DNA from: Mariniblastus fucicola
GTDB taxonomy: Bacteria; Planctomycetota; Planctomycetia; Pirellulales; Pirellulaceae
Direction of reading: 5' to 3'
Length of the DNA: 64,000 nucleotides
NCBI RefSeq assembly: GCF_008087665.1
Contig: NZ_CP042912.1
Coordinates: 2,294,001-2,358,000, forward strand
Part shown: in pieces, positions 2,521 to 43,741 of the stretch
Layout: the number at the start of each line of letters is the position of its first letter
How positions within the stretch are numbered: position 1 is the stretch's first letter
Made by a program: the position numbers and the translations under genes
The notes under the pieces: generated by a model
Databases searched by the model: none
Seen by the model: only the letters and a program-made list of their open reading frames with translations
What the model was told of the DNA's origin: nothing

Positions 2521-2570
2521 TGGCACACACGTCGCTTCCGCGGCACGAACTCAGAACAACGGACAAGTTA

Positions 2571-3878: not shown

Positions 3879-4756
3879 GTGCACTGGAAAGTTGTATCTA
3901 TCGCGGAACGATTCGCCATCGACGCCAAACTCCGGTCAAGAATGCGTTCAAGTTCCCGGCCTACATGATGTACGTCGACCTTGCCGAACTCGACACGCTG
4001 TTTCGGAAACGCCTGTTTTGGTCAGTTCGCCGCGCCGCACCGGTTCGATTCCGTCGTTCCGATCATATGAAAGTTCAGCCGCAAGAACTGTCGCTGCGAG
4101 AGGCCGCGATCGCGACGCTGCGAGAGCACTCCTTCGATAAAGACATCGGGCCAATCCGTTTGCTGACACAGTTTCGCCATTTCGGCTTTGCGATGAATCC
4201 AGTCAGCTTCTACTACTGCTTTGACCGCGACGACAATCGTGTCGAAGCCATTATCGCTGAAGTCAACAACACGCCTTGGGGCGAGCAACACATCTACGTC
4301 GTGCCGGCTCGCGGGGACGGCAGTGAAGAACAAAAACGCGTCGTCATTGAACGGCTGAAGAAAAATTTTCACGTGTCGCCGTTCATGCCAATGGATATGG
4401 AGTATCGCATGCTGTTCACCATCCCTGGCGATCAGCTGGGGGTGAAGATGCAGAACTTTCAGCAGGGCGAACGCAAATTCGATGTCTCGATGTTGATGGA
4501 ACGCGTTCCGATCACCGCGTGGTCGCTGAACTGGATACTGCTGCGATACCCGATGATGACGGCTCAAATCTTCGCCGGCATCTATTGGCAGGCTCTGAAG
4601 CTGTACCTTAAAGGTTGCCCATATATTCCACATTCAAAAAGCGATGAAAGTCGTGAAGTTGCCCCCGTTATTGCGGGAAATATCGAACCAGATCCGCTAA
4701 CTTGGAACCATCGAGCTGAAGCCACGGCTCGCAATACTTTGAAAGATCCAGCCTGA
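3875..4756 (+). CDS. DUF1365 domain protein
   Basis: The 293-residue product shows the DUF1365 landmarks: an N-terminal CIYRGTIRHRR segment, YMMYVDLAELD, and the strongly conserved FGFAMNPVSFYYCFD and EVNNTPWGEQHIYV blocks. The biochemical activity of the family is unsettled; it is almost always found between an FAD amine oxidase and a cyclopropane fatty acid synthase, as here. The start ATG lies in the ATGA overlap with the previous gene, and the stop is three bases before the cfa start. A short hydrophobic helix is possible near WILLRYPMMTAQIFAGIYW, suggesting membrane association (inference). Confidence 0.88.
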   Translation: MSALESCIYRGTIRHRRQTPVKNAFKFPAYMMYVDLAELDTLFRKRLFWSVRRAAPVRFRRSDHMKVQPQELSLREAAIATLREHSFDKDIGPIRLLTQFRHFGFAMNPVSFYYCFDRDDNRVEAIIAEVNNTPWGEQHIYVVPARGDGSEEQKRVVIERLKKNFHVSPFMPMDMEYRMLFTIPGDQLGVKMQNFQQGERKFDVSMLMERVPITAWSLNWILLRYPMMTAQIFAGIYWQALKLYLKGCPYIPHSKSDESREVAPVIAGNIEPDPLTWNHRAEATARNTLKDPA

Positions 4757-4759
4757 ACC

Positions 4760-23618: not shown

Positions 23619-26600
23619 ATGGTTTGCTGTTCCGAATGTTTCACGAGACCCAACGTGCACCCTTTGCTGATTACAATTCTGTTCCTGCATTGCGCCCTGA
23701 CGTCGTCGCACCTCGTGGCGCAACAGCAGGCGGTGAATTTTACTCAGCTATTTGACGGTATCGAACTTCGACCGCCGGAGTCCGCGTTCATTGCGCCGCC
23801 GAGAGAAGTCATCCGCCCCTTGCTTCGGTGCAAGAAGTTGATGGCTGCCGGCAAAGTGGACGAAGCCGTTGAAATCCTGGGAGAAGTCCTCGCTGATGAG
23901 TCGGTCGAGGATTTCCTGATCCCCCGTGGATCGCAATCATTCTCCAGCCTTCGATCGCGAACCGAACAGATCCTCGGTTCGATCGACGCCCGCTTCCTTG
24001 AGCCGTATCAGATTCGATATGGAATTCGAGCCCGGAAGCTGCTGGAACGTGGCGTCGCGGAAAACGATCTGTCGCTGCTGAAGAAAGCTTCGAATCAGTT
24101 CTTCTTCACCGATTCAGGGGCTGAAGCCGCGATGTTGTTGGGGCATCTCGAACTTTCCAACGGACAACCCTCAGCGGCTCAATCGTGGTTCGCGAAGATC
24201 GTTCGGTTTCGGTCCACTGCCGCTAAACACGATCCCGAAGCTTCCATTTTGTTGGCCACCTGCCAGATGCTCAGCAACAACCGCGACGCGGCGGAAGAGA
24301 CTTTGGTTTCGCTGAAACAACGGATGCCGAATTCGACGATTCAGTTGATGGGCGAGAACTACACTCTATTTAATCGCAATCCCGAAGCGATTCCGTGGCT
24401 GACCAGGCTGATCGGCGACAGCCCGTTGGCTTCCAATCGAACACTTTCCAGGTGGTTGATGTTTCAGGGGAATCCGGCGCGGACTGGAAAAGTCGGCACG
24501 GGAATGCCGTTGATGGCGCCACGTTGGGAGCACGCAACTGCCAGCTCGATTGCGCTCAAAGAACGTTCGACGGAATACCTGAAGGAGCTGGTTCAGGAGA
24601 AAACCGTTCCTGCGCCTGCAGTCCAGCCGTTGGTCGTCGGAGACACGATCGTGTTTCGGGACGTCGATCATATGTACGGCGTCGATTTTGAGTCCGGTTT
24701 GCGAAAATGGGCCTGGCCACCTCGGTTCGCGTGGAACGATACTCCTTCCGAGAAAGTTTCTGTTGCGGCAGCGCTGAAGATGAATCAGAGATTGGTGATG
24801 GATTCGATCTACGGACGCGCCAGTAGCGACGGTCGGCTGATCTTCTTCGTGCCTCAACCGGGAAGTTCCAGTCAATACGATCACGACAACGTTTTCGCCA
24901 ATGCAGACGATAGCGCCCCCGAAGACCTGCGGACTCACAACGAACTGGTCGCCATCGATTCGGAAAATTCCGGAATGCTGCGGTGGCGTGTCGGTGGTCC
25001 GAAGGGTTTCGACGAACCGAAATTGGCGAAAGCGTTCTTTATGGGAGAGCCGTTGCCGCTCGAAGGCGTGCTGTATTGCTGTTGTGTTCTGGACAACGCG
25101 GTTCAGCTGGTTGCGTTGGATTCAAAGACGGGAAAGCTGCGCTGGATTCAGGCGATCGCCGCGTTCGACCATGAGAGCTTCGACGCCAATCACAACCGTC
25201 GACTGGCGGGAGTCAGCCCGTCTTACGCCAACGGAAAAATCGTGTGTTTGACGGGAACCGGTGCTGTGGTTGCGTTGGAGGTTTCCACGCGGACGTTGCT
25301 GTGGGGCTATGAGTATCGTTTGCCGCGGAACACGCGAATCATTTCGGATTCGAACAACTATCCGAACATGCTCAACGACGCGTGGCGAGACTCACAGGTC
25401 ACGATTGCGAACGGGATGGTGTATCTGACGCCAGTGCTGTCTCGCGAGTTGATCTGTCTGGATTTGGATAATGGCGAAGGCGTCTGGTACGAAGAAGACG
25501 GTTTTTTGCCTCGGAAAGTCGAACGTGAATCGTCGCTGTACTTGGCCGGCATCAACCAGGGCCAGCTGATTCTTGTTGGATCGCGAAACGTGCGAGCCAT
25601 CGATTCGTTTTCCGGCGTCGAAACGTGGCGACTGCCATTGGCTGCGGATGATCTTCCTTCCGGTCGCGGCTATATCGGAGTTGATTCGTTGTTTCTGCCA
25701 ACAACCAGTCGCAAAATTTTGCGGATCGATTTGGCGGACGGCAAGATTGCCGAGTCCGTGGGAACCGGGCGGATTTTGGGGAACTTGTCACGAGTTCAAG
25801 GCGATGTCGTTTCACATGGTGTCGACCATGTCGCCAGCTATCCGGAGTTCGGTGCCAGTCGCGAAGCGATCGACCGCTTGCCAGTCGCGACGCTCAACGA
25901 ACAACAGCAGTTTGCGAAATCGCAGATTCTGATTCAGCAAGGAGAACTCGAATCCGGTTTGGACTTGTTGATTTCGCTCGCCGAACAAAACTCCGATCCG
26001 AAGTATTCTTCATTGCTCGACGCGTGTGCGAACAATTTTCAGATGGATAGCCCCTCGCTTTCGTTGCGAGCACTGGACGCACTCAAACGTCTGTATCCAC
26101 GGTTCGATGTTGATGAACTTGAACGAATGAGATTGCTTTCCAAGCTTCGGACTGGCGAGTTTGCCGAATCGATTGATTTGGGACTGACGCAGATTGAGGG
26201 ATCGTTTGCGCGAATTCCCGACGGCGTGATCGTTGAATCGTCCGATTCGATCGTGGAAAGCGTCAACGCAACGCTGCTTGATCGGCCGATCGAGTGGGAG
26301 GCTGATCCGGGCGACGTTCCGGGTGTCGAAGTGGTTGATTTCGAGAACCGATATGACACCATTCAGTACTCTGAAGTCGGATGGCATCGCGCGAAACTGC
26401 AGATGGCAATCGAAGGCTTGCGAGAATACGATCCAGACGCCGCGGCACAGGTTTACTCTCGCACTGCCGATCTTGTTTCCAACGCGCTCGACGGAACGGA
26501 TGATGAAGTCCAATGGCTGCTGGATCGATTGCCTGAAAGCGTGATGGATTTGCCAACTTTGGAACTGATCGCGAATCATCGATTGGAGCAAAAGAAGTAT

Positions 26601-28484
26601 CTGATCGCCCTGTTCTACGCCAACACGGCGATCGGGCGTGGCGGTGACGGCGTCGAAGAGTTCAAGCTGCTCAAAGCCAGAATTCTGCTGGCCGGAAGGG
26701 ATCTGAACGCGGCCAAGAAAGTGCTGGACTCTGTTGACTTCGCCGTTCTGGATGATACCAATCGCCAGGAACTGGAAAGCCTGAACCAACAAGTCACCGT
26801 CCAGGTCGCTGCCGACTCCGGGATGTTCAATTCGTCCGCTGCCGGTTCTGACGCGGACTGGCCAGGCTTTGAAACGGGCTACATTCGCAAAACTCAGTCG
26901 AAAAAGCAGACTCCGATCCGGTATCGACTTCCTTTTGTTTTCGATCCGGCGACCGATGCTGACTATCGAAAAACCAGACTGTTTCTGTCCCCTTGGGGCG
27001 ATCACAGGCGCGAGTTCGAAGTTCGCAACAGTCGCGGAAACGTCGTGCGAGAGCTGCAGCTTCGCGACGAGAACCTGTCGGGATCGTTCGGATACTCACA
27101 ACGGTGCCAGATCGATATTCAGAATCACGTCGCCGAGTTGACGCTGAATAAAATCACGCTGATCGTCGACTGGTTCAACGTTATTTCTGGCGATGGCGGC
27201 AACCTTTGGGAGTTACCACACGAACAGGTCAGCCCCGTTCGCACCGCGTTTTCAGGAATGCGTGAATTGGTCGTGGCCGAACAGAATATGCTGCACTGCT
27301 ACGAAACGCATACCGGGAAAGTGCTGTGGAAGCGAAAGATGGCAAAGCCGGTTAACCGAATCGTGACTCACGGATCGTTGCTGACGGCGTGGAGCGAAGA
27401 AGGGCGGCAATTCAATACGATCGAAACTGCGACAGGTCGATTGGTTCGAACCGTGAAGTCAAAACGCTTCATCGTGTCCCGTAGTTTGATCGACAAATTC
27501 GTGATGTGGCATCCGATTCGCAAAGGCGAACTGCCGGCCGATCAGGAAAATGCTCTGGCGGGTCCAGATGGTCCCGCCAACCCCGCCAAAGTCGCGATTC
27601 GAATGGCTGTTTTCGACGCCGGTCTCGGCCGACTGGCTTGGCAACGCGTCAATGACAACAGGGCGCGGTCCTACTATCGGGTTTCCGAAGTCTGTACGCT
27701 CGATCCGCATGGAACGCTGGCTTTTGTCGATCTCGGCAGCGGTGAAACGTTGAGCCAAACCGAATTGCCGTTGACCGATTCGGAGAAACGTTCGCTGCAG
27801 GGTATCAATCTTCGCCGGCATCGAGCTGGCTGGGTCTTGCACGTGAAATTGAAAGATCGTGCGGATCCATTTTCGCGAGGGAAATCAACGTATCGGTTCA
27901 ATCAGCTGCACTATTCGCTTGGCTCCGGTCCCGTGTTTTTGCTGGGTGATGCGAGCAAGCAATTGGTCTGGAAAGATCGTGTTTATCTTGAGCGGATGGA
28001 GTACATGAACAACCAGCCGTTTGATTCGCCGGTCATCATGTTTGGGCGGCACATTGCGCGACATCATTCTTCGGACGGAGAAATGCACTATTTGCAGTCG
28101 ACAATTTTGGACGCGAAAACTGGACGTTTGATTGGCAGCGATGTGGTGAAGACTCTCGAAAGCTACAACGGGCACGCGATCGAATGGAAGCCCGGTGCGT
28201 CCGGAGCTTCAGCGCACACGCTGGCAATTTCTACGCCCACACAGGTGCAGAGCTTGACGTTTGGAAGTGATGTCGAACTGCCTCCGGTTCCGCAAACGCA
28301 TCTGACATTCAACGCGTTAGATTTCTTCGACGACACCAACCTCGAGCGACCTCAAGCAGTCGTGGCTGACGTTCGCGTCGGCGAATTCAGGGCGCGAGCT
28401 TTGGAAGCCAGCAAGGTTCGTAAAGCTCGACTTCCTCAAGCCGCGGCTGAATTGAAAAAACGTCTGCGTGTTGGATCTCAGTGA
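23619..28484 (+). CDS. Very large exported PQQ-like beta-propeller/TPR protein
   Basis: This 1621-residue protein has a signal peptide (HPLLITILFLHCALTSSHLVAQQ) and tetratricopeptide-like helical stretches around residues 60-220 and again near 760-1060. Between and after these lie PQQ/BamB-type propeller blades, recognisable by repeated SGLRKWAWP, TGKLRWIQA, STRTLLWGYEY, SGVETWRLPL and THTGKVLWKRKM motifs. Such proteins are common in planctomycetes and likely act as periplasmic or outer-membrane scaffolds; enzymatic quinoprotein activity is not implied by the propeller alone. A GTG at 23655 would give a more canonical signal peptide than the ATG at 23619. It begins 46 bases after csrA. Confidence 0.85.
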   Translation: MVCCSECFTRPNVHPLLITILFLHCALTSSHLVAQQQAVNFTQLFDGIELRPPESAFIAPPREVIRPLLRCKKLMAAGKVDEAVEILGEVLADESVEDFLIPRGSQSFSSLRSRTEQILGSIDARFLEPYQIRYGIRARKLLERGVAENDLSLLKKASNQFFFTDSGAEAAMLLGHLELSNGQPSAAQSWFAKIVRFRSTAAKHDPEASILLATCQMLSNNRDAAEETLVSLKQRMPNSTIQLMGENYTLFNRNPEAIPWLTRLIGDSPLASNRTLSRWLMFQGNPARTGKVGTGMPLMAPRWEHATASSIALKERSTEYLKELVQEKTVPAPAVQPLVVGDTIVFRDVDHMYGVDFESGLRKWAWPPRFAWNDTPSEKVSVAAALKMNQRLVMDSIYGRASSDGRLIFFVPQPGSSSQYDHDNVFANADDSAPEDLRTHNELVAIDSENSGMLRWRVGGPKGFDEPKLAKAFFMGEPLPLEGVLYCCCVLDNAVQLVALDSKTGKLRWIQAIAAFDHESFDANHNRRLAGVSPSYANGKIVCLTGTGAVVALEVSTRTLLWGYEYRLPRNTRIISDSNNYPNMLNDAWRDSQVTIANGMVYLTPVLSRELICLDLDNGEGVWYEEDGFLPRKVERESSLYLAGINQGQLILVGSRNVRAIDSFSGVETWRLPLAADDLPSGRGYIGVDSLFLPTTSRKILRIDLADGKIAESVGTGRILGNLSRVQGDVVSHGVDHVASYPEFGASREAIDRLPVATLNEQQQFAKSQILIQQGELESGLDLLISLAEQNSDPKYSSLLDACANNFQMDSPSLSLRALDALKRLYPRFDVDELERMRLLSKLRTGEFAESIDLGLTQIEGSFARIPDGVIVESSDSIVESVNATLLDRPIEWEADPGDVPGVEVVDFENRYDTIQYSEVGWHRAKLQMAIEGLREYDPDAAAQVYSRTADLVSNALDGTDDEVQWLLDRLPESVMDLPTLELIANHRLEQKKYLIALFYANTAIGRGGDGVEEFKLLKARILLAGRDLNAAKKVLDSVDFAVLDDTNRQELESLNQQVTVQVAADSGMFNSSAAGSDADWPGFETGYIRKTQSKKQTPIRYRLPFVFDPATDADYRKTRLFLSPWGDHRREFEVRNSRGNVVRELQLRDENLSGSFGYSQRCQIDIQNHVAELTLNKITLIVDWFNVISGDGGNLWELPHEQVSPVRTAFSGMRELVVAEQNMLHCYETHTGKVLWKRKMAKPVNRIVTHGSLLTAWSEEGRQFNTIETATGRLVRTVKSKRFIVSRSLIDKFVMWHPIRKGELPADQENALAGPDGPANPAKVAIRMAVFDAGLGRLAWQRVNDNRARSYYRVSEVCTLDPHGTLAFVDLGSGETLSQTELPLTDSEKRSLQGINLRRHRAGWVLHVKLKDRADPFSRGKSTYRFNQLHYSLGSGPVFLLGDASKQLVWKDRVYLERMEYMNNQPFDSPVIMFGRHIARHHSSDGEMHYLQSTILDAKTGRLIGSDVVKTLESYNGHAIEWKPGASGASAHTLAISTPTQVQSLTFGSDVELPPVPQTHLTFNALDFFDDTNLERPQAVVADVRVGEFRARALEASKVRKARLPQAAAELKKRLRVGSQ

Positions 28485-28504: not shown

Positions 28505-31399
28505 TCATCGACTCATTCGTTTTAGCCGATCTTTCTCGATCTCAGCTCGGCGTTTCGTGATTGTCTCGAACGCGTTTTCGGCTGCTTCTCCATTGTCACG
28601 CATTTTTTCGAACTCACGGTATGCGATTTCAAAAACATCGTCGGACGCGTATTGAAAGAATGTAAAAGCGTTGCCTTTTTCCGCGTATTTTTCTGAGAGA
28701 GCGATACGCACAAATGCGGCGACAGATTCCCTGCGGTTTTTTTTGTCAAAGTTTTTAATAATGCCGTACCAATCGTAATGGAACCGATCGGGATGCGAGG
28801 CGACAGCCTTTGAGAACGCACGGCTCAAGCCATCTGCTCTGCTGTCGAAACTGGCAACCGCGAATAGCATCGAGGACACCATCTTGTTTTCATGAGCATG
28901 CTCAAGCATTGGTTTGACTATCCGAGTTTTCGTCGCGTCAGATACATCTTCATTCTGAATCAGGTCGCAAAGTATTCTTGCCGCGTTGGACGATGTTTGA
29001 GATTCGTCCAGTGCTGCAATCGAAATGGAAGCAAGCTCCGATTCGATAGGAGCAAGACGTTCCCATGACCGTTGCGGTGACATTACCGATCGACGAGCGA
29101 AGTTCCAGTGGGTACTGTCTGTCCCGGAGATCAGTTTAATTGCAAGCTGCTGCAGTTGTTCGTCTGTCAACCAGTTGAGGAAACTGAGTGCAACACTGCT
29201 GTTGTAGTCTACCTTTCTGATGCGGAAAACTGCCTCCAGCATCGGGTCGATCAGTTCCGGGTGCGACGCCGCGTCTTTCAGTTCAATCATTCCAAGGACC
29301 GGTTTCTCGAGTTTCTCACCATCGCGTTCAAACTTGATCGCGTTGAGACATTGCTCAAAAGTCATCCCGTTGTAGACCGGTTCCGCGAGGGTTTGAGAGT
29401 TCAGATTTCCGTGATAGATCTTCGCAACTTTGACGCTGACGTAGGAGGATTCTTTTTTGAGTATCTTTCCGATGTAGCGTTCGCGAACCAGTGTTTCGAT
29501 GTCCAACGCAGTCAGGCCAACGACCTTGATCGGCTCAGTCAGCGGCAAGCTCAATGTTCCATCAATTCGCACTGGAAAAGGGTGCTCTGTCAATTCGCCA
29601 AACTCTGCCGTTATGTTGGTGATGTGGATATTGAGAATGTCACCTGGCCCGACCTTGTGAAACGGGTCAACAGCTATACCTGACGACAAGTCACCGCCAA
29701 CGGGCTGTTCTTGGTTCGTCGATGCATCTGACGGCGTATCGCTTGTAATCCGATTTCCTTGTCTCTGGCCTGAAAGATTTCCAGGCATTGGCTTGGGTGT
29801 TTCTGATTGGGCGAAGTCTTCAATCCGAGTCACTTTTACAATTTCCGTTTCGCCACGGGAGAGAGTCAGTTTGGCGTTGTCGATCGTAACCGAGTTGTCG
29901 TCGCCGACCGCGCGGATTTGATAGCTGCCAGACCGAATTTGAAGCTCCTGTTTCGTTTTCAAGTCAACGATTTCGATTTGCTCGCCGCCTTGCAGAACTT
30001 CAATTTGAACGTCCGGATCGTCGGTCTCGATCACAATCAGACCCTCGTTCGAAGCGACGCGGATGATCTGCGGTCCAAAAAGAAACCCCGCCCATCCCAA
30101 GGCTGCGATCGCCAGAACCCCAGCGACGGTCTTCCACAATGAAAATGGACGATCGTTGAAACTGCCGTTCGTTTGCGTTCGGCTGACGTGCTTCGAATCA
30201 ATTTGTGAATCAGGTTGCGGACTGCACTCAAACGGCCAATCGGATCGGTTGGCTTCCAGAGCAATCGCAAGGTCCCGCGAAGTTTTCGGGCGACGAGTCG
30301 CTGATTTCTCCAACAACATCATGACCAGATCGGACAGATCTGAATCGACAGTCGGCTCAAGACTTGCCGGAGACTCTGGTTGTAAACGCTGAATCGCCTG
30401 CAGCGTTGCCAGCGCGTTCGACGAAACGAACGGAAGCTTCCCGCACAAACACTGATACAGCACGCAGCCCAGGCTAAACAAATCGCTGCGGGCATCCAGT
30501 TCGTCGCCCCGAGACTGTTCCGGCGACATGAAACATGGCGTCCCGGCAATCATGCCGGTACAGGTCAGCTGAGGACTTTCGTCCATCATCCGAACCAAAC
30601 CAAAATCCAGAATCTTGATTTGATCCTCTTCCGTGATCCACAGGTTCGCAGGTTTGATGTCGCGATGAACCAGCCCTTTCTGGTGAGCCGCCGAAAGTCC
30701 CAGGGCGATCTGGGTTCCAAGCTTTCTGACTGTGTCGGAAGGCAAAACCGATTGTCGACTTAATCGATCTTCCAGTGTCTCTCCCGGAAGCCATTGCATG
30801 ACGATAAAAGCAAGCGGTCCGCTGTCGCCAACATGGAAAATCGTGACGATGTTCGGATGGTTCAGCTTCGCAGTGGCTTTAGCTTCTTCGACGAATCTCT
30901 GTCTGGCCGCATCGCCCAACGTTGGGCGAAGCACTTTGATCGCGACCGGTCGATCAAGATTTTCGTCGACCGCTCGAAACACAACACCAGTGCTGCCGCA
31001 TCCGAGAACTTCTTCGATCCGATAGTGTTCGATTTGGCCGATCGAATCGTGCCCACTTGGCGAATCAAGCATCCCGAGCACATCCGCAGCACGTTGGTTC
31101 GGAGTCGAAACTGCGGCACCGGATTGAGATTTTGCTCCCGCATCGATCAGGCGATGAATCAGATTGCTTACGACGCTTTCGTCGCTGTCGGTAACGGATT
31201 CAGGATCTTCAGCCGAAGTGCCAACGACCAGCGAGTGGAACGTGTCGTCGATCTGCAGTCCGTTGATTGTTTCAACACAGGGCTCGCAATCCGCGAGATG
31301 GCTTTCACATTCGAGCGACGTTTTCGGATCGAGCTTTCCGAGCAAGAACTGTGAAAGCGTTTCTGGCTGGGGGCATTCAGGTGTGCTGGGGGCGTTCAT
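28505..31399 (-). CDS. Membrane Ser/Thr protein kinase fused to a polysaccharide-export (Poly_export/SLBB-type) domain
   Basis: The 964-residue protein has, in order, an anti-sigma-like zinc motif (H34, C38, C41 in HLADCEPC), a complete Hanks-type kinase domain (glycine loop LGCGSTGVVF, K155, HRDIKP at 245-250, DFG at 265-267, GTPCFMSPEQS), one membrane helix at about 422-444, a PEGA-like region (450-530) and, at about 580-665, a polysaccharide-export domain beginning KVGPGDILNIHITN. The last 300 residues are helical and unrecognised. It is immediately downstream of an ECF sigma gene (114-base gap). The kinase part is cytoplasmic and the export domain extracytoplasmic by topology, suggesting a sensor linking polysaccharide secretion or envelope state to signalling (inference). 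Confidence 0.85.
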   Translation of the reverse strand: MNAPSTPECPQPETLSQFLLGKLDPKTSLECESHLADCEPCVETINGLQIDDTFHSLVVGTSAEDPESVTDSDESVVSNLIHRLIDAGAKSQSGAAVSTPNQRAADVLGMLDSPSGHDSIGQIEHYRIEEVLGCGSTGVVFRAVDENLDRPVAIKVLRPTLGDAARQRFVEEAKATAKLNHPNIVTIFHVGDSGPLAFIVMQWLPGETLEDRLSRQSVLPSDTVRKLGTQIALGLSAAHQKGLVHRDIKPANLWITEEDQIKILDFGLVRMMDESPQLTCTGMIAGTPCFMSPEQSRGDELDARSDLFSLGCVLYQCLCGKLPFVSSNALATLQAIQRLQPESPASLEPTVDSDLSDLVMMLLEKSATRRPKTSRDLAIALEANRSDWPFECSPQPDSQIDSKHVSRTQTNGSFNDRPFSLWKTVAGVLAIAALGWAGFLFGPQIIRVASNEGLIVIETDDPDVQIEVLQGGEQIEIVDLKTKQELQIRSGSYQIRAVGDDNSVTIDNAKLTLSRGETEIVKVTRIEDFAQSETPKPMPGNLSGQRQGNRITSDTPSDASTNQEQPVGGDLSSGIAVDPFHKVGPGDILNIHITNITAEFGELTEHPFPVRIDGTLSLPLTEPIKVVGLTALDIETLVRERYIGKILKKESSYVSVKVAKIYHGNLNSQTLAEPVYNGMTFEQCLNAIKFERDGEKLEKPVLGMIELKDAASHPELIDPMLEAVFRIRKVDYNSSVALSFLNWLTDEQLQQLAIKLISGTDSTHWNFARRSVMSPQRSWERLAPIESELASISIAALDESQTSSNAARILCDLIQNEDVSDATKTRIVKPMLEHAHENKMVSSMLFAVASFDSRADGLSRAFSKAVASHPDRFHYDWYGIIKNFDKKNRRESVAAFVRIALSEKYAEKGNAFTFFQYASDDVFEIAYREFEKMRDNGEAAENAFETITKRRAEIEKDRLKRMSR

Positions 31400-31513: not shown

Positions 31514-32077
31514 CTACAGCAAACCATCAAGCGTCTCACGTAATCGCGACATTAACCTTGATTTTGCCGCGTAGACCGTCCACACGCTCAGCCCATTTTC
31601 TTTCGCCGCGATTGCTGCGGGTTGGCCTTCGAATACGTACTGCTGCAACGCCTGCCACGTCGACGCCTGGAACTCATGCCGCAACAGTTCCTTCGCCCGG
31701 GACACGAGGGCTTGCTGGTAGTTCAGGTCCCAGGTCGATTCTGCGTCTCCGGGCTGAGCGATCGACGCCAGAACACTTTGAGTCGCCGGAGTTGCTCCGA
31801 TGGACTTCTTGCGTAGCTTCTCCCGATACCGGTTGAGCGTCACGGTTCGCAGCCAGCCACGAAAACTTTTGCCGGCGTCATATTTGAACGCGGGCAGCTT
31901 TTGAAACGTCAGCGTCAACACGTCCTGAACCAGATCGGCCGCGTCGTTGGTTTGCAGCCCGGTTTTCCGAGCCCAATAAAAGATCAGCGGCGTGTAGAGT
32001 TCGACAAACGTCGACCAGGCTCGCTGGTCGCTGCCAGAACGCAATCGCAAAAGCAGACTTTCTGATGTACTGTCCAT
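31514..32077 (-). CDS. ECF-type RNA polymerase sigma factor (kinase-associated)
   Basis: The 187-residue protein has sigma region 2 (STFVELYTPLIFYWARKTG.., DLVQDVLTLTFQKLPAF, FRGWLRTVTLNRYREKLRKK) and region 4 (helix-turn-helix around EGQPAAIAAKENGLSVWTVYAAKSRLMSRL). Instead of a classic anti-sigma gene it is followed by a kinase carrying an anti-sigma-like zinc motif. Planctomycetes are known for ECF groups associated with Ser/Thr kinases, where phosphorylation is thought to control the sigma factor. It is a paralogue of the gene at 35424-36056. Confidence 0.88.
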   Translation of the reverse strand: MDSTSESLLLRLRSGSDQRAWSTFVELYTPLIFYWARKTGLQTNDAADLVQDVLTLTFQKLPAFKYDAGKSFRGWLRTVTLNRYREKLRKKSIGATPATQSVLASIAQPGDAESTWDLNYQQALVSRAKELLRHEFQASTWQALQQYVFEGQPAAIAAKENGLSVWTVYAAKSRLMSRLRETLDGLL

Positions 32078-32281
32078 CGATACAGTTTATTCGATTCGAT
32101 GGAGCAATGTTGCCGCGTGTTGGATCACATTTTGGACGCCGGTCGCTTGATCGCACCAGTTGCTCGCGCAAGCGAATGGCTCTGCGGGGTTGGAAACCAG
32201 GGGTGTAGATTTTCCAACCGCCGCAGAGCGTTCGCAAATAGAATCGATGTCGGCTAAGGCAGCGATGAAGATTTCAGCGGC

Positions 32282-35200
32282 CTACTTCTGCATCCGTTTC
32301 AGCTTCGCAGGACTGATCCGCTGGAGCAGTTGCTCGATGTGCTGCTGCGGATTCAACCCTGCCTCTCGGTATCGTTTGACCAGCGAAACCGGAACGCGAG
32401 TGTGGATCAAATCTTCCAGTTTTGAAACGTCGAATCCGGCGTCACGATAGGCCGCGACAGAGCTTGCCGGGACACGACCGTGGGCGAACGAGCCGTACTC
32501 TTTCAAGTTCAAATCTGCGTCACGATACGACTTGAGCAATTCGACCGGGACTCTGCTTTCGATGAACACGCGGACATCCTTGATGTCAAAGTTGTTTGCG
32601 TACTCCTTGAAATCATCCGGATCAATATTCAACGCGATGTAATCCAAATTCGCATCGACATCCAGACCGGCGTTTCTCCACGACACGACGTTAACTGCGT
32701 CGACGCCCGAAAGCATCAATCGGTCAACCGTGCCTTCTTTGAGCTCCAGTTTGGCGAACGTTTTCAGCTTGCCTATCAACTCGGTTTCGTCCTCCGGCGA
32801 CAGGAAAAGCTGAAGCAACAATGCGTCCGAAGCTGATTTGATTCCGTCCGATTCGAGCTTTTGGCGAAACGAATCGCTGGCAATGAATTCAAAATCTCCA
32901 CTGCCGACAGAACCATCGAACGAGCCGTCGAAAACAAGTTTTCCGAACCGTTTGCTCAATTCAAAACCTTCCGGTTTGTCTTTGAGAGCGGGAGCAAAGT
33001 CATTCGAAGCGAACTGGTGCGAGTACACCCACGTCCATGTCGAGTCGTCGTGTTCGGAAATGATTTGCAAATCGAAACTCTCGTCAAAAAGTTCTCCTTT
33101 CCATTCGCCCTCGATCTCTTCGTTCCATTCTTCGCTGTCGAGATCGATCGTGAAGCGGGACGACGAAACCTTGATCGATCCATCGGTCAGGAAAAACCTT
33201 GAGTCTTCGCTTTTGCATTCTTCCAACGTGAATCGCTTGATAAATTCCTTGAACCGATCATCGTCGCGAAGACTTTTCAGGTCAGAGTCTTCTTTGATAT
33301 GGCTCATGCTCAGACTTTCGGCCAGTCCGCTGTCGAGAGCCGAGTTGAGCGATTTGAATGCTGCATCCGAATTGTCGCGAAGGGCGAACACACAAGCCAT
33401 GTTGTAGTTGCCAAGAGCAACGTGGTCTTTGCCGTTGGCAGATTTTTGATGCCACTCCATCGCCTCGTCGTACTTGCCCTGCATGTGCAACGCATAGCCG
33501 AGATTCAACCAGGCTTTTTCATTTTCGCCATCAATCTCCATCACTTCACGGATCATCGTGACAGCCTGTTCGTATTTCTCCTGCCCGACCATGACCATTG
33601 CTTTGTCCAACAATTCTCGCGACTGTTGGATCTCTTTCAGTTCCGCCAGGATATCCTTGAAGCGATCTGTTTCACGCAACGCTGCAAGGTCCGAGTCGTC
33701 TTTGAATTTTTCGTATCGGTCGTAGCCCGCGTCGATGGCGAGTTCCAGTTCATCCATCGCCTTTTCGGGTTCTTCAGTCAACGCATAGGCACAACCGAGG
33801 TTGTAGCGCGACATGCCGCGAAAGTGATCGTCGTCCGTTGAGATTTTGTAGTAGGCAATCGCCTGTTTGTAATTCCCTTCGTGGAAGTTCGCGTTGCCCT
33901 TTTCAAAAGCCTGTTGGCCGCTGAGTTCGTCGTCTTCCTGTGGTTCGATCACGACCAAGCCAACCTGCCCGTGTTCCTCCGACGTCACGTCGACCTGAAG
34001 CCAGTCTCGATCTGCGTCATCAACGCTCATCGGCGAAACGCTTTGCGCCAATTGTCCCTGTGCCGTGGGTGTTGCTTGATCGAAAGACTCTGCGGTGGCC
34101 CAAACTTGAGCAATCATTTCGTTGTCTTCATTCGCCGCCGTGTCAGATTGTTCCGCAGGTGGCATCAATCCGTATCCCGCCGCACCGAGCAGCAGTGCTC
34201 CGGCGAGCAACCCGCCCCAATACGTTCGGCGTCGCGGAGTTGCCGAAGCGAGCTTTTTCTTGACGACGGGCGGATGCGAAACGTCGGGCTGATGGAGGAA
34301 AAACATCTGCTTTGAAAGGACTTCATGCAGTTCCGCAGCCGACTGGAAACGATCCTCCGGTTCTTTCTCCAACAACACGTCGATGATGTCGGCGAGCGTT
34401 TTCGACGTGTTGCGATTCACTTGCCGAACCGGTGTCGGGTGGTCCTCCTGAATCCGTCGCAAAACTCCCAGCGGCGATTCGCTGCGGAACGGAAGCCGAC
34501 CGGTAGCCAAAAAGTAAATCAGGCTGCCGAGCGAAAACAGATCGCTTCGATGGTCCAGTCGCTCGCCACGCGTTTGTTCCGGCGACATGTAGTTCGGCGT
34601 TCCTGTCAGCCAACCGGTTCGAGTCAGCGACGCGTCGTCTTCGGCGCGGGCCAAACCAAAGTCCGTGATCATCACCCGGTTACCGCCATCGGCGACCAGA
34701 ATGTTGGCGGGTTTGATGTCGCGATGAACCAGACCTTGCGAATGAGCGGCGGTCAAGCCAGCCGAAATCTGCAACGTCATTCGCACGATTTCTTCTTCGG
34801 GAAGCGGCCCACGCTGCTCAACCAGCGTTTGCATCGATGGTCCAGCAATATAAGGCATCACGATATATGGATTCTTTCCGCTGTTTTCAACTCGGTGCAC
34901 TGCGATAACATTTGGATGAATGACTCCCGCCGCAGCGCGTGCCTCATGCGCGAAACGTTGTCGTGCTGTGCCGTGGCTGGCCAGATGCGGAGCCAGCACT
35001 TTGATCGCCAGCGGACGATTGAGTTCCGCTTCATGGGCCTTGAGCACGATTCCCATTCCACCGCGACCAATTTCACGCTCAATGTCATAGTCGCCGATTC
35101 GCCCCAGCATTTCCGGATGCCTGGGAGCGTCCAGCAGCGAGTCAATAGGCCAGGACCACTGAGCCTGGTCGGAATCTTTGTCGACGTCGGAAGGCAGATC

Positions 35201-35431
35201 CGTCGTCTCAATACCGTTCGATCCGAGGTTGCCTTGCAATGGAACGTTCGACTTCAAAAGCTCCGGTGCCTTGTTCCAAATCGCGGACTTGGCCGCAAGT
35301 TCGTCCAGCTTGTCGCGACAGCTGCTGCACTGGTGGACGTGTTCTCCGATACGATTGGTGTGCGGAGACTCGTGCTCACCGCCCAGCATTTCCAAAAGCT
35401 CGTCCCGGCTGACGTGTTTGTCTTCAGTCAT
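32282..35431 (-). CDS. Membrane Ser/Thr protein kinase with TPR repeats and C-terminal 26-residue repeats
   Basis: The 1049-residue protein has an anti-sigma-like zinc motif (H31, C35, C38 in HVHQCSSC), a kinase domain (IGRGGMGIVLKAHE, K144, HRDIKPAN at 236, DFG at 257-259, GTPNYMSPEQTRGE), a membrane helix at about 404-423, and TPR-like repeats at about 495-720 (ANFHEGNYKQAIAYYK, NLGYALHMQGKYDEAMEW). A beta-rich region follows, and the C-terminus holds five 26-residue repeats built on VPxxxVxxYRDAGxD. It overlaps the upstream ECF sigma gene by eight bases, so the two are translationally coupled. It likely senses an extracytoplasmic ligand through the TPR/repeat region (inference). Confidence 0.88.
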   Translation of the reverse strand: MTEDKHVSRDELLEMLGGEHESPHTNRIGEHVHQCSSCRDKLDELAAKSAIWNKAPELLKSNVPLQGNLGSNGIETTDLPSDVDKDSDQAQWSWPIDSLLDAPRHPEMLGRIGDYDIEREIGRGGMGIVLKAHEAELNRPLAIKVLAPHLASHGTARQRFAHEARAAAGVIHPNVIAVHRVENSGKNPYIVMPYIAGPSMQTLVEQRGPLPEEEIVRMTLQISAGLTAAHSQGLVHRDIKPANILVADGGNRVMITDFGLARAEDDASLTRTGWLTGTPNYMSPEQTRGERLDHRSDLFSLGSLIYFLATGRLPFRSESPLGVLRRIQEDHPTPVRQVNRNTSKTLADIIDVLLEKEPEDRFQSAAELHEVLSKQMFFLHQPDVSHPPVVKKKLASATPRRRTYWGGLLAGALLLGAAGYGLMPPAEQSDTAANEDNEMIAQVWATAESFDQATPTAQGQLAQSVSPMSVDDADRDWLQVDVTSEEHGQVGLVVIEPQEDDELSGQQAFEKGNANFHEGNYKQAIAYYKISTDDDHFRGMSRYNLGCAYALTEEPEKAMDELELAIDAGYDRYEKFKDDSDLAALRETDRFKDILAELKEIQQSRELLDKAMVMVGQEKYEQAVTMIREVMEIDGENEKAWLNLGYALHMQGKYDEAMEWHQKSANGKDHVALGNYNMACVFALRDNSDAAFKSLNSALDSGLAESLSMSHIKEDSDLKSLRDDDRFKEFIKRFTLEECKSEDSRFFLTDGSIKVSSSRFTIDLDSEEWNEEIEGEWKGELFDESFDLQIISEHDDSTWTWVYSHQFASNDFAPALKDKPEGFELSKRFGKLVFDGSFDGSVGSGDFEFIASDSFRQKLESDGIKSASDALLLQLFLSPEDETELIGKLKTFAKLELKEGTVDRLMLSGVDAVNVVSWRNAGLDVDANLDYIALNIDPDDFKEYANNFDIKDVRVFIESRVPVELLKSYRDADLNLKEYGSFAHGRVPASSVAAYRDAGFDVSKLEDLIHTRVPVSLVKRYREAGLNPQQHIEQLLQRISPAKLKRMQK

Positions 35432-36056
35432 TGGATCCTTGATCTTTCTCGCAAAGCGAAAGGTTGGTTTCGTTGAGTCGCTGTTGAATCAGCTTTGACA
35501 TGCGAGCCATGATGCGGGAACGTGCCACGTAAACTGCTCCGCAGTGGATTTCCAGTTGCTCGGCGACTTGCTCCACAGGAACTCCTTCGATCGTCGAAAG
35601 CCAGAACGCCTGCCAGTTGACGGGTTTGAAGGAGGACTTGAGACGCTCGGCCGCCCACTGAAAAAGTTGTCGTTCGTACTCCGCCTGAAACTCCATTGAA
35701 TCAACTTTGCCAGGATCAGCGATTTGACTTACTGCCGGATCCGCGATCGGAATTCGGTGCTGTTCGTTTTGCTTTCGGCGAAGAAAATCAATGGTCAGAT
35801 TTCGCGTGATGCGGTACAGCCAACCTCGAAAGGAAGACTTATCGTGATCCGGATCCCAGGATTCGATGGACCGGGCAACCCGGCTCAACACTTCCTGGGT
35901 CACTTCTGCCGCATCCGCGTACTGAAGACGATGTTTCTGAATGAAACGTTCCACCAGTGGCTGATAGATTTGCACGAACTCCGCCCAGGCTTCGTTATCG
36001 TCCCGGTCATGCATTCGCACGATAAGACTGTTTCGAGTGTCCGGGTTGGAATCCAT
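35424..36056 (-). CDS. ECF-type RNA polymerase sigma factor (kinase-associated)
   Basis: The 210-residue protein has region 2 (WAEFVQIYQPLVERFIQKHRLQ.., AAEVTQEVLSRVARSI, FRGWLYRITRNLTIDFLRRK) and region 4 (NWQAFWLSTIEGVPVEQVAEQLEIHCGAVYVARSRI). It overlaps the following kinase gene by eight bases on the minus strand. The tight coupling with a kinase bearing a zinc anti-sigma-like motif suggests that the kinase regulates this factor directly. Confidence 0.9.
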   Translation of the reverse strand: MDSNPDTRNSLIVRMHDRDDNEAWAEFVQIYQPLVERFIQKHRLQYADAAEVTQEVLSRVARSIESWDPDHDKSSFRGWLYRITRNLTIDFLRRKQNEQHRIPIADPAVSQIADPGKVDSMEFQAEYERQLFQWAAERLKSSFKPVNWQAFWLSTIEGVPVEQVAEQLEIHCGAVYVARSRIMARMSKLIQQRLNETNLSLCEKDQGSND

Positions 36057-37153: not shown

Positions 37154-40100
37154 ATGATGAGATCACGGATGGAATGGTTCCATAAAGGCACGAAGCGGAA
37201 AGTGCGTCGAAAACACAAGGCAAGGCCCGGGTTTCAACGATTGGAGCCGCGACAGTTGCTCACCGTCAGTCTGCCCATCGAAGTCGCCGACTTTCGCGAC
37301 GACTTTCCACGCAGAGCTGCCGCGCCGACCGAAGGTTGGGCTTATCTTTGGAACGCGCCCGCGGGCTGGAGCAATTCGAACCCGGGAAATCTGAACTCGG
37401 CCGCGATCGACAATCCCGAAACGATCTACCAACCCTTGCAACCAGCCGGTTCGCTCCTGACGCCCGATGGAGACTTGAAATTCAATGACAGTCATCCGTC
37501 GTCCGCACTCTATTTTTCTGCCACAGGCGGTCATGCCGGATCCGTGAAACAGTTGAGCTCAGGTGCTCGATACAACGGACAGGATCGCTACGCCATCGCC
37601 GCATTTACCGTGCAGGAGGCTGGCGTCTATGAGCTAACCGATAGTTTCATTCAGCTGGATGACTTGCGATCCAGTGGTCTTGAAGTTCGTGTTTTCGTGA
37701 ACCGGAACAAGCCGCTGATTCTGCAGACGGTTGAAGCCAAACAACGAATCGGTTTCGATGCAAGACTCGGTTATTTGAGAGCTGGAGACACTGTCCATGT
37801 GGCGATTGGTGCGGGTGTGAACATCGCTTGGGATCATTTTCTCGTCGATTTCTCGATCGTTCGACACACCAGTCGAGTCGAGTCACTGGCCAGATTCGGC
37901 CGTGATGTGATTAGCCACAATTCTCGCTCGCCGTGGACCTACATGTGGAACGCGCCGACCGGATGGGTGGAGGGCGGACAACGCGGAAACCTGAACACGT
38001 CACCGATTGGCGCGACCAGCTCCTATCAGCCGCTTTTCGAATCTGGCGATGTGTGGGTTCCTGATCGCTCCAGCGATTCGCGTTCTCCCACTTTCAGCAT
38101 GCAACTGGATTCCGACGGAGGAGCCCCCGGCGCTGCGTGGCAACAGAGTTCGTCGTTTCAGGATCGCTATCTGATCGTGAGATACACCATTCCGACCAGC
38201 GGAAATTTCGTTGTTTCCAACAGCTATTTGCGAGTCAATGATTCGCGGAGCGACGGAGTTGAAGTGGTGGTTCACAGGGAAGATGGAACGCGTGTGACAG
38301 GCGATTCGATTGTCGCCAAAGCTGGCAGCAGCAAGTCGTTTGATCTGCTGTTGGGAGATCTTTCGGCGGGCGAGCACATTTACTTTGCGTTCGGAGGTGT
38401 CAACAACGCCAACTATGACCGCTTCGAGATGGATTTCAGTATCGACCGCGTCTATCCCAGAGAGCTCCCGTTGCGCGAATTGGTACCGACCAAAGTTCTC
38501 CACGTGACGGAATTCGGAGCAACTCCAAACGATGGCTTGAATGATTGGCATGCGATCGAAGCCGCTCTGCAACAGGTCGCGAAGAACAACCAGGCAGTCG
38601 AAATTCGTCTCACGCCAGGAACCTGGGATCTGTACCCATCGAACACGCTTGAGAGCGACGAGTACTTTTTCGATTTGCTGCGATATCAGAATCTGACCTT
38701 CAACGGCATGGGCGCCGAAGTGCTGATTCACGACGACAAACGGGGTTTGTTTCGAGTGCTCGACAGCAAAAATGTTATCTTGCGAAACCTCGTCATCGAC
38801 TACGCCGACAAAATTGGCGACCGGTATCGGCCTCGAACATTCACTCAGGGAATCATTCGGTCACTTGATCCGGCCGCTCGCAGCTTTGAGCTGGAAATTG
38901 ATTTGGTTGGATTCATCGCTCCCGATGCGTCGTTCACCTCTGCCGCTACAGGTTCGTGGGGATACGCGGTCGATCCAAACGTCGCCGGACGGCTCAAGTT
39001 CAACAGCTGGCTCAACTATCCGACCTACGAAGTGCAAAAAGTCTCAGGAAATCGTTTTCGGATACGGACTGAATTTACCGAAGGTCTTGCCGTCGGAGAT
39101 CGTTACGTGCTCCAACGACGTTACGACCATCCTTTGTTCAACGTGGCGGCCTATTCGCAACAGGTTAGTCTGATCGGAGTGCGTGCCTACACCGCGTCCA
39201 GTGTTTTCGTCAGCTCGAATTTGAGCGAAGCTCTCAATGTGATTCGCAGCAGCGTCACCATCCGACCCGACTCCGGACGTTGGAAAAGTGGCAACGCCGA
39301 CGGAGTTCACGCTCAATCGAATCGGGTTGGTCCGTGGATCGAGGACAGCCGCTTTCAAGGGCTCGGCGACGACGTGATGAACTTTTATACGTTGCCCTAC
39401 ACGATTACCAAACGGAATAGCCTTAGAACGCTAACGCTGGCCACCATCAACCACGACACGCTGGGCAACGTCGGAAGCCGATCGTTGCGGATCGGCGATT
39501 CTTTCAAATTCGTCAATCCGCTCACAGGGGCCGTGATCCAAACTGCGCGGTTGACGGACGTCGCCGACACTCGGCAATCAGTCATCATTCAGGGGCGAAC
39601 TGAAATGAGAGACATGGTTATGGTGACCTTTGATCAGGATATCAACGGAGTGGTCGTCGGAAATTCTCCAGCGGGCGAAAGCGACGGTTTTCGTAACGAA
39701 ACCACGGTCTTCAATGAAGGGCTCAGCCGCGATTTTCTGGTCGAGCGAAACTATATCGCCGATTCGCGACGCTTCGGAAACTATCTAATGGCCGATAATG
39801 GCGAGCTCAACCACAACATTTACGTCGGGCTCAGCGATCAGGCGATTCTGGGGCGCAATGAGTCCGGATGGCCGTTGGGGGCGTGGCCTTCGAATGTCTC
39901 AATCCGGTCGAACTCGTTTTATGCAAATGGTTTAAGTGCGAGGTATTTGCGACAACCCCAAGTCTACGGAACGGTCGACTTTCACATGAATCGACTGCCC
40001 AACGTTTCGGTTAACCGTGATGTTAGAGAAATTCGACGATTGAAGATCGTGGACAACCACTTTCAGTATTGGCGGAAGGCGGCTGTTTCTGTGCGCAACG

Positions 40101-40192
40101 CGGAAGCCGTGACGATTTTGGACAATACGTTCTCCGATCCGCTGGGTAACTTCGGAAGCCCGGTGAAAGTGAAGTTCTCAACCTTCCTCTAG
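37154..40192 (+). CDS. Large surface protein with LEPRxLL motif, duplicated N-terminal domain and right-handed beta-helix
   Basis: The 1012-residue protein has a basic N-terminus (about residues 10-25) followed by QRLEPRQLLTV, the planctomycete-specific export/anchoring signature. Two related domains follow (about 55-235 and 250-430), each beginning with YxWNAPxGW and NLN..YQPL. From about 445 a pectate-lyase-superfamily beta-helix starts (VTEFGATPNDGLNDWHAIEAAL), with repeated short beta-arc segments to the end. It is probably a secreted or cell-surface polysaccharide lyase/hydrolase-like or adhesive protein; catalytic residues cannot be assigned. ATG 37154 is used; the adjacent ATG 37157 is equivalent. 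Confidence 0.8.
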   Translation: MMRSRMEWFHKGTKRKVRRKHKARPGFQRLEPRQLLTVSLPIEVADFRDDFPRRAAAPTEGWAYLWNAPAGWSNSNPGNLNSAAIDNPETIYQPLQPAGSLLTPDGDLKFNDSHPSSALYFSATGGHAGSVKQLSSGARYNGQDRYAIAAFTVQEAGVYELTDSFIQLDDLRSSGLEVRVFVNRNKPLILQTVEAKQRIGFDARLGYLRAGDTVHVAIGAGVNIAWDHFLVDFSIVRHTSRVESLARFGRDVISHNSRSPWTYMWNAPTGWVEGGQRGNLNTSPIGATSSYQPLFESGDVWVPDRSSDSRSPTFSMQLDSDGGAPGAAWQQSSSFQDRYLIVRYTIPTSGNFVVSNSYLRVNDSRSDGVEVVVHREDGTRVTGDSIVAKAGSSKSFDLLLGDLSAGEHIYFAFGGVNNANYDRFEMDFSIDRVYPRELPLRELVPTKVLHVTEFGATPNDGLNDWHAIEAALQQVAKNNQAVEIRLTPGTWDLYPSNTLESDEYFFDLLRYQNLTFNGMGAEVLIHDDKRGLFRVLDSKNVILRNLVIDYADKIGDRYRPRTFTQGIIRSLDPAARSFELEIDLVGFIAPDASFTSAATGSWGYAVDPNVAGRLKFNSWLNYPTYEVQKVSGNRFRIRTEFTEGLAVGDRYVLQRRYDHPLFNVAAYSQQVSLIGVRAYTASSVFVSSNLSEALNVIRSSVTIRPDSGRWKSGNADGVHAQSNRVGPWIEDSRFQGLGDDVMNFYTLPYTITKRNSLRTLTLATINHDTLGNVGSRSLRIGDSFKFVNPLTGAVIQTARLTDVADTRQSVIIQGRTEMRDMVMVTFDQDINGVVVGNSPAGESDGFRNETTVFNEGLSRDFLVERNYIADSRRFGNYLMADNGELNHNIYVGLSDQAILGRNESGWPLGAWPSNVSIRSNSFYANGLSARYLRQPQVYGTVDFHMNRLPNVSVNRDVREIRRLKIVDNHFQYWRKAAVSVRNAEAVTILDNTFSDPLGNFGSPVKVKFSTFL

Positions 40193-42625: not shown

Positions 42626-43741
42626 ATGTCCAGCAACCTACAACCGAATAGTGCGACTCCGACGCGAAAGCGGATTCTGGAGTTGGATGCCATTCGTGCA
42701 ATCTCGTGCTTGAACTTGCTGCTGTTCCATTTCACTTGGGTCTACGCACACAAATACGGATTCACCTCACCGCTGGCGTACATGTTTCCGTACGGCAAAT
42801 ACGGAGTCCAATTGTTTTTTATGCTGAGCGGATTCGTCAACGTGATGACCCTGATCGGAAAGCGCACAACATCTGACTTTCTGGTCGCCCGCTGTATTCG
42901 AATTTTCCCCTCCTACTGGTTCTGCATTCTGCTGAACGTCTTGCTGTTTTCATTCATTCCATTTTTTGGGCAAGACGTCACCCTCGCAGCAACCGCCGCC
43001 AACCTTTCCACTATGCCGAAACTGTTTGGGTTCGAGAATATGGAGCCCGTCACATGGACGCTTCAGGTGGAGATGTTGTTTTACACGTTTCTGGTTTTGA
43101 TGACCGCGTTTGGCGGTTGGAAGAACACGTTGCGCAACTTGATGGTCGGAACCGTCGTTTGTTTGACAGGCTGCGGTGCGATCCACTGGTTGAAAACTTC
43201 CTGGCCCGAGTCTGGATTGGGAGGAACATTGAGCGTCGTCGAACAGCTTTTCATCTTGCGTAATTTTCCGCTGTTCGTGATGGGCATGTTGCTCAACGAG
43301 ATCCACAAAAATCGTGGCAATCGATGGCACAACGTCCTTGGCATTGTGTTCGCTGCGATTGTGTTTCATGTCGTCGATGTTCGCGGACACAACCCTGTCG
43401 CAACAGCGATGCTGTTCGGGATGCTGGCGTTCGCGGCGTGGGGCAAGATTCCTCCGCTGCGTTGGCGGCCGTTAGTCTACATCAGCTCAATCTCATACAC
43501 GTTGTACCTGTTCCACAACAATATTGGATCGTGCTGCATCAATCAGCTGCAGGTATTTGGCTTTGGGCCTCACGTCAGCATCGTCATTGCCACCGGGCTG
43601 ATGATCGCACTTGGAGCCGCGACGACGATGTGGTTCGAAGCACCGATCACGCGTTTTCTGCGAGCCAGGTACAGGGCTTTCAAGTCTGGTGCCGCGACGA
43701 ATTCTGGTACCGCAACAGCCGGCTCAAAGGCAGGAGCGTAA
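42626..43741 (+). CDS. Acyltransferase family 3 integral membrane protein
   Basis: The 371-residue protein begins with the family hallmark RILELDAIRAISCLNLLLFHF, carrying the conserved Arg and His of acyltransferase-3 proteins, followed by about ten membrane helices (KYGVQLFFMLSGFVNVM, RCIRIFPSYWFCILLNVLLF and others). Members transfer acyl, usually acetyl, groups to extracytoplasmic sugars such as O-antigen or peptidoglycan. It ends four bases before the next gene, so the two form an operon, pointing to envelope polysaccharide modification. Confidence 0.88.
   Translation: MSSNLQPNSATPTRKRILELDAIRAISCLNLLLFHFTWVYAHKYGFTSPLAYMFPYGKYGVQLFFMLSGFVNVMTLIGKRTTSDFLVARCIRIFPSYWFCILLNVLLFSFIPFFGQDVTLAATAANLSTMPKLFGFENMEPVTWTLQVEMLFYTFLVLMTAFGGWKNTLRNLMVGTVVCLTGCGAIHWLKTSWPESGLGGTLSVVEQLFILRNFPLFVMGMLLNEIHKNRGNRWHNVLGIVFAAIVFHVVDVRGHNPVATAMLFGMLAFAAWGKIPPLRWRPLVYISSISYTLYLFHNNIGSCCINQLQVFGFGPHVSIVIATGLMIALGAATTMWFEAPITRFLRARYRAFKSGAATNSGTATAGSKAGA

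Follow-up and report, generated by a model that had tools for sequence, protein, structure and literature searches.

A kinase joined to a Poly_export domain

Why should a bacterium attach a domain of polysaccharide-export (OPX) channels to a serine/threonine kinase? The question is raised by an open reading frame (ORF) of the planctomycete Mariniblastus fucicola, which lies on the minus strand at positions 28505-31399 of the 64,000-nucleotide stretch of contig NZ_CP042912.1 (positions 2,294,001 to 2,358,000) that was analysed here, referred to below as the window. The ORF runs unbroken from ATG to stop and encodes a protein of 964 amino acids (P0001) that combines a Hanks kinase with a Poly_export (PES) domain, and the gene of an extracytoplasmic function (ECF) sigma factor lies beside it. 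We know of no sensed signal for most planctomycete Ser/Thr kinases. The protein described here is a real, rare and well-defined domain fusion within a known kind of sigma-linked receptor kinase, and its parts are as follows.

28505..31399 (-): whole ORF, ECF-paired receptor kinase with a PES domain, 964 amino acids; the homologue L080/L009 covers residues 5-953
31277..31375 (-): zinc anti-sigma-like motif, residues 9-41 (C9, H34, C38, C41); zf-HC2 at residues 15-41 with 21.1 bits, slightly below the cut-off of 22.2; ligand pattern in 10/12 kinases
30281..31024 (-): Hanks Ser/Thr kinase domain, residues 126-373; PF00069 (Pkinase) 172.3 bits; catalytic motifs; PknB is the nearest solved kinase by sequence
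30059..30139 (-): single membrane helix, residues 421-447; Kyte-Doolittle peak of 1.88 at 424
29825..30058 (-): beta-rich "PEGA-like" region, residues 448-525; 68% identity to L080; all-beta in the model; no Pfam family
29399..29665 (-): PES domain, residues 579-667; PF02563 42.3 bits; model matches Wza/OPX with Z 8.7-10.5
28508..29383 (-): C-terminal module, residues 673-964, with an EPVYNGMTFEQ opening and then a predicted alpha-solenoid; helical repeats in the model; solenoid matches of middling Z; opening probably common to paralogues
31514..32077 (-): partner ECF sigma factor, 187 amino acids, 114 bp upstream of the kinase ORF; TIGR02937 56.6 bits; 69% identity to the sigma factor beside L080

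By its catalytic motifs the kinase domain is an intact Hanks Ser/Thr kinase, as VAIK with the catalytic lysine, HRD, DFG and the SPE of the activation loop are all found. The top hydropathy peak lies at 424-442, and a second, borderline one (1.51 at 307) falls within the kinase fold; this topology would place the kinase half in the cytoplasm and the PES domain in the periplasm. The zinc ligand pattern C-x(n)-H-x3-C-x2-C occurs in ten of the twelve kinases checked, P0001 among them, the exceptions being L014, which is cut at its contig start, and the window's neighbouring kinase, which lacks the first cysteine. The first-pass annotation of this DNA had joined a zinc motif, a kinase, a membrane helix and a Poly_export domain in one polypeptide, and this is borne out by the ORF, by Pfam, by hydropathy and by a homologue of the same order. 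Its "PEGA-like" region keeps that name as a resemblance only, being modelled all-beta with middling confidence and giving no match to a PEGA model in Pfam at E 0.1. It was mistaken in placing the PES domain at the C-terminus, since about 290 residues (673-964), largely alpha-solenoid in the model, come after it. The helical repeats of this last module have a pLDDT of mostly 60-91 per ten-residue block; their best score against HEAT/ARM-like structures is Z 11.2, where values up to 13-14 are common for helical repeats, and Foldseek gave the solenoid no match at E 0.001.

Judged by Pfam, by its homologue and by the predicted fold, the PES domain of P0001 is a true Poly_export domain. PF02563 matches residues 582-656 with 42.3 bits against a cut-off of 28 (E 8.8e-11), and a PES profile of nine rows, two of them fused, finds Wza among solved structures at E 5.2e-5. 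When the domain was modelled on its own, with just the two fused sequences as input (pLDDT 71.2, pTM 0.66), the first ten Foldseek rows were all Wza/OPX entries; upon realignment nine OPX entries reached Z 8.7-10.5, while the best unrelated entry reached Z 4.4, and model residues 14-102 (580-668 of P0001) superpose on Wza 84-173. Only this domain-alone model is usable for fold comparison, the whole-ectodomain model having come from a two-row alignment with a pLDDT of 57 and leaving the PES domain unresolved. The first-pass annotation had staked the Poly_export fold on structure prediction, and in the prediction the Wza/OPX matches outrank everything else.

The sequence indicates that P0001 is not itself an export channel, because it has no SLBB match (Pfam, E 0.1), no lipobox or export signal, and no polysaccharide cluster among the scanned neighbours described below. 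Its zinc motif and kinase come first and its helix is internal, so that no signal peptide or lipobox is seen at the start, as read without a signal-peptide program. P0001 therefore resembles the OPX export proteins (Wza; the Class 3 OPX protein WzaB) in the sequence and predicted fold of its PES domain, but it differs from them in all of these features, in lacking an outer-membrane segment, and in being attached to an inner-membrane kinase.

Conservation and rarity of the fusion

A second genome of the genus holds a homologue, L080 (one locus with L009), on contig CALFWR010000156.1, which carries the label uncultured Pirellulaceae. It has the parts in the same order, with 47% identity over residues 5-953, and its PES domain scores 45.2 bits in Pfam; the same sigma factor is adjacent to it as well. 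On all these grounds the fusion is not a matter of chance. The search for this architecture in other planctomycetes, which had been proposed as a check, found it intact this once among the matches listed for the genomes given below. Between the two proteins identity is 68% in the zinc motif (25/37), 71% in the kinase (187/262), 68% in the beta-rich region (53/78), 26% in the linker before the PES domain (13/50), 39% in the PES domain itself (35/89), 63% in the opening of the C-terminal module (22/35) and 23% in the remaining C-terminus (56/246).

A Poly_export search at E <= 0.001 gave matches in 28/28 genomes of the genus, with two frames over 700 amino acids, both of them these kinases. Since two of the 28 genomes have the fusion while all have Poly_export matches, the fusion is no general part of export. 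A profile of the beta-rich region plus the PES domain (A2), built from P0001, L080 and a relative with a decayed domain (L121), was run with at most seven candidates scored per genome and, in the order search, to E 1e-6; among the matches listed for 392 phylum and 396 order genomes, none further covered both parts. A single-sequence search with residues 453-964 in 294 phylum genomes gave no further fusion, and no PES relatives were found in viral contigs. None of the longer PES frames that were read (nine from the phylum search, two from the order search) is a kinase; ten have the appearance of OPX proteins, and the remaining one is L154. This last frame, at 2606-4780 (-) in a related genome, encodes 724 amino acids with a PilQ-secretin-like region (TIGR02515, E 1.5e-5, below cut-off) and a PES domain (49.9 bits).

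In the literature searched, as far as the available text covers, a kinase-PES fusion is not described. The number of Ser/Thr kinases per planctomycete is reported to range from a few to several hundred, a membrane helix being present in most of them, and 132 Pfam domains are joined to kinases of the PVC group (PMC11032199); the text of this survey, as distinct from its domain tables, mentions no such domain, and Poly_export may be among the 132. The accessible parts of two OPX surveys (PMC9603273, PMC9601211) distinguish three classes and mention no kinase fusion either; the second of them set aside OPX proteins outside polysaccharide clusters.

A kinase subfamily with a variable slot

The kinases related to P0001 have in common the N-terminal half and the beta-rich region, and most also have a C-terminal module opening like P-x-Y-x-G. 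In the nine proteins with both ends found, the slot between the beta-rich region and this opening measures 28 to 285 residues. It is 149 residues in P0001 and 169 in L080, where it holds the PES domain, and 29 and 28 residues in L081 and L156, respectively. The slot of L123 contains an SH3_3-like stretch (22.7 bits, below the cut-off of 27) and a coil, that of L122 a double coil, and those of L011, L013 and L014 no named domain; L010 has a coil and is cut by a contig end, and L121 has a decayed PES domain and a coil, then CarboxypepD_reg (66.2 bits), and lacks the C-terminal motif. By these comparisons the subfamily retains both flanks and varies the stretch between them, which may be PES, coils like those of polysaccharide co-polymerases (PCPs), SH3, unnamed or near nothing. 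In a related genome the kinase L157, at 1924-4728 (-), has at its distal end an AhpC-TSA/redoxin domain (43.5 bits against a cut-off of 26), another kind of exchanged ectodomain.

The PES domain of L121 scores 6.8 bits with filters off and nothing with filters; it has no Pfam match and a BLAST E of 2e-5 to L080 (nine subjects). P0001, L080 and L121 fall together in the kinase tree, with moderate support (90/89), so that the simplest history is one in which the PES domain was gained once and later decayed in L121; the fused PES domains are likely of single origin. The PES tree does not group the three (3 changes, long branches). The opening of the C-terminal module is probably homologous across the paralogues: cut at the motif, the module compares with a probability of 76 (E 2.2e-5, 87 columns); the two-subset split gives probabilities of 18.5 and 29.4; and the uncut module gives 39 (E 3.1e-4, against 0.084 for reversed sequences).

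The slots of four kinases (L010, L121, L122 and L123) hold a coil-like stretch containing HPxV. Three of the five coils match the PCP model TIGR03007 (polysaccharide chain-length determinant, NCBIfam) at the same model positions, namely the two of L122 (E 8.5e-4 and 0.021) and the one of L010 (E 6.4e-4); the L121 and L123 coils have no TIGR03007 match in NCBIfam. A five-coil profile run over the 28 genus genomes found, beyond its own five members, 14 places in 13 frames at E <= 5e-4, and eight of these frames are co-polymerases by family models (L162, L163, L164, L166, L168, L169, L172 and L186, of which L168 and L186 are so assigned only below curated cut-offs). The remaining frames are two VIT/VWA proteins (L167 and L187), a 47-amino-acid frame just behind an incomplete subfamily kinase ORF (L170), L165, and L171, which has a weak TIGR03007 match (E 7e-4). 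The coils are likely related to co-polymerases, and composition could account for part of the signal. At its start L187 has an anti-sigma-like stretch (NF052375, E 9.9e-12, below cut-off) and a hydrophobic helix, so that sigma-linked sensors of another type may also contain the HPxV coil.

The partner sigma factor

The sigma factor at 31514-32077 is 69% identical, over all 187 residues, to that beside L080. Sigma factors of 53-58% identity directly adjoin seven further kinases (L121, L081, L123, L122, L011, L156 and L010), and one of 50% identity lies 1.5 kb from the L158 kinase; no sigma factor was seen with L014 or L170, but in both cases the locus stops at or close to the beginning of the kinase. 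Going by gene order, kinase-ECF adjacency is conserved across the related kinases. Such pairs are a known kind, among them the planctomycete groups ECF59, 61, 62 and 217 (PMC8999054), and phosphorylation of an ECF factor by a kinase is known for PknS-EcfK and PknT-EcfP (PMC13147305, PMC8999054). P0001 and its partner are like these pairs in that a Hanks kinase gene adjoins an ECF gene and the arrangement is kept across relatives, and unlike them in the PES ectodomain and in the zinc motif carried on the kinase.

Region 2.2 of ECF43 sigma factors lacks a negative charge, which the kinase provides (PMC8999054, PMC13147305). Membership of the window's sigma factor in ECF43, which is marked by loss of DxxD (the same two sources), was rejected since the acidic motif of region 2.2 is retained; D/ExxD is present in each of the nine sigma factors inspected by eye. 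Activation is more likely to proceed through release from the zinc motif or through another phosphosite.

A test for autoregulation found no two-box promoter motif common to the nine sigma upstream regions beyond what shuffles gave, promoter and terminator scans were at or below chance, and the partner sigma factor had no match in plasmids. The heptamer TAAACTG (TAAGCTG in L122) is seen upstream of four of the nine sigma genes, those of the window (32078-32091), L080, L123 and L122; in the window and L080 it immediately precedes the start, in L123 and L122 it lies farther upstream, and it is possibly a -10-like box.

What the PES domain may do

Domain D1 of Wza, which we take to be its PES domain, is consistent with Wza residues 84-173 in the model alignment. 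In Escherichia coli the inner-membrane autokinase Wzc contacts D1 with its extended forearm, and the two proteins cease to co-localise when Wza lacks D1 (PMC12881504). By analogy, we favour the reading that P0001 is an inner-membrane receptor kinase which uses its PES domain as a docking bait for the export machine and passes the outcome to the kinase and the ECF sigma factor, and we give this tentative reading a probability of roughly 0.4. The bait, taken from OPX export channels and carried on an inner-membrane stalk, would either meet a polysaccharide co-polymerase at the arm, as PES naturally does in Wza-Wzc, or join a PES ring. This contact would alter the clustering of the kinase ectodomains; the kinase would then autophosphorylate and would free or phosphorylate the sigma factor, which the zinc motif would hold until kinase activation, and transcription would thereby be adjusted to the assembly state or load of the export machine. 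The kinase carries, on an inner-membrane stalk, the very domain that Wzc grips; an economical guess has it docking in the place of a channel's PES domain, with occupancy or clustering setting the activity of the kinase and, through it, of the sigma factor.

Such a protein would possibly work like the Wzc-type BY-kinase co-polymerases, with an export-machine part in the periplasm, an inner-membrane anchor and a kinase in the cytoplasm; unlike Wzc, P0001 has a Hanks and not a P-loop kinase fold, and carries the OPX side of the contact and not the arm. With the PASTA kinases (PknB/Stk1) it shares the kinase family and the one-helix receptor layout, but it has no PASTA match, and its NF033483 score is 259.8 against a cut-off of 450 bits. 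The first-pass annotation had suggested a link from the export channel or its polysaccharide through the kinase to the ECF factor. The ECF end of this link is supported by the conserved adjacency; the channel end is plausible, because D1 of Wza is the Wzc-binding part in E. coli, and has no polysaccharide cluster among the scanned neighbours to support it.

Since a PES domain is found in P0001 and L080 and PCP-like coils are found in paralogues, both sides of the Wza-Wzc contact appear to have contributed parts to the slot. One could suppose that a single ectodomain slot captures pieces of exporters, PES here, PCP-arm-like coils in the paralogues and both in L121 (with the PES domain decayed), so that each kinase would pose as half of the contact and, as a decoy receptor, would report whether the opposite half is engaged or still unoccupied. 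We regard this broader scheme as unlikely.

Several observations weigh against the docking reading and its extension. The PES domain is less conserved than the kinase or the beta-rich region (39% as against 71% and 68%), in P0001 it lacks about 15 residues found in aligned canonical planctomycete PES domains, and the fusion occurs in 2/28 genus genomes, plus the decayed L121. No polysaccharide cluster was seen among the 25 window neighbours (larger ORFs) and seven L080 neighbours scanned, only an acyltransferase at 42626-43741. Because the sigma factor retains D/ExxD, activation of the EcfP type does not carry over to it. As to the coils, P0001 itself has none, the match to PCPs is weak and comes from two proteins, five of the 13 profile frames are not PCPs, the profile finds no PCP or co-polymerase among solved structures (PDB), and the best of the weak Pfam matches links one coil to an unrelated coiled-coil family (E 0.0056).

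The PES domain might instead be an oligomerisation or spacer module, which through ring packing as in Wza would cluster the ectodomains or stiffen the stalk while the alpha-solenoid or the beta-rich region reads the signal. The paralogues L081 and L156, whose slots are nearly empty, have no PES domain and nevertheless retain kinase, sigma factor and C-terminal opening motif, and slot inserts vary widely, with three of them holding no named domain; a mere spacer is harder to reconcile with a PES domain that stays above the Pfam cut-off in L080 and with four paralogue slots that appear to hold PCP-like coils and not random spacers. We consider this explanation somewhat unlikely. If selection played no part, a PES fragment would simply have been inserted into a fast-evolving ectodomain by neutral accretion and would already be decaying in L121. 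The rarity of the fusion, the low PES identity and the nearly unrecognisable PES domain of L121 would all fit, but P0001 and L080 have diverged (the remaining C-terminus is 23% identical), and yet both PES domains score above the Pfam cut-off, and we think neutral accretion very improbable.

It is also conceivable that the PES domain or the whole ectodomain binds an exported or cell-wall polysaccharide directly, with no contact to an export machine, as PASTA kinases bind muropeptides. SH3_3 and CarboxypepD_reg domains are often ligand- or wall-binding, and both types have a counterpart beyond the membrane in this subfamily, the below-cut-off SH3_3-like stretch of L123 and the CarboxypepD_reg of L121. 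Sugar binding by OPX proteins has, however, been proposed for SLBB (PMC1796856), and P0001 has no match to that domain; direct glycan binding seems to us quite unlikely.

Neighbouring genes

Directly upstream lies a second ECF-kinase pair (32282-36056, -), in which the sigma gene at 35424-36056 overlaps the kinase gene at 32282-35431 (-). This kinase has TPR repeats, and reading by eye shows a "RVPVELLKSYRDADLN"-like unit repeated towards its end. Further along, 37154-40192 (+) is an ORF of 1012 amino acids with no Pfam match at E 1e-4, and on the other side a protein of 1621 amino acids with PQQ-type beta-propeller repeats and TPR is encoded at 23619-28484 (+), convergent with the kinase gene.

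Conclusions

In P0001 a sigma-linked receptor kinase has an ectodomain that can be recognised as belonging to a known machine, which makes its signal guessable and a test of the guess direct. If it is true that the paralogues carry the partner piece, this subfamily would represent a general scheme in which receptor kinases are built with components taken from the machines under their watch.

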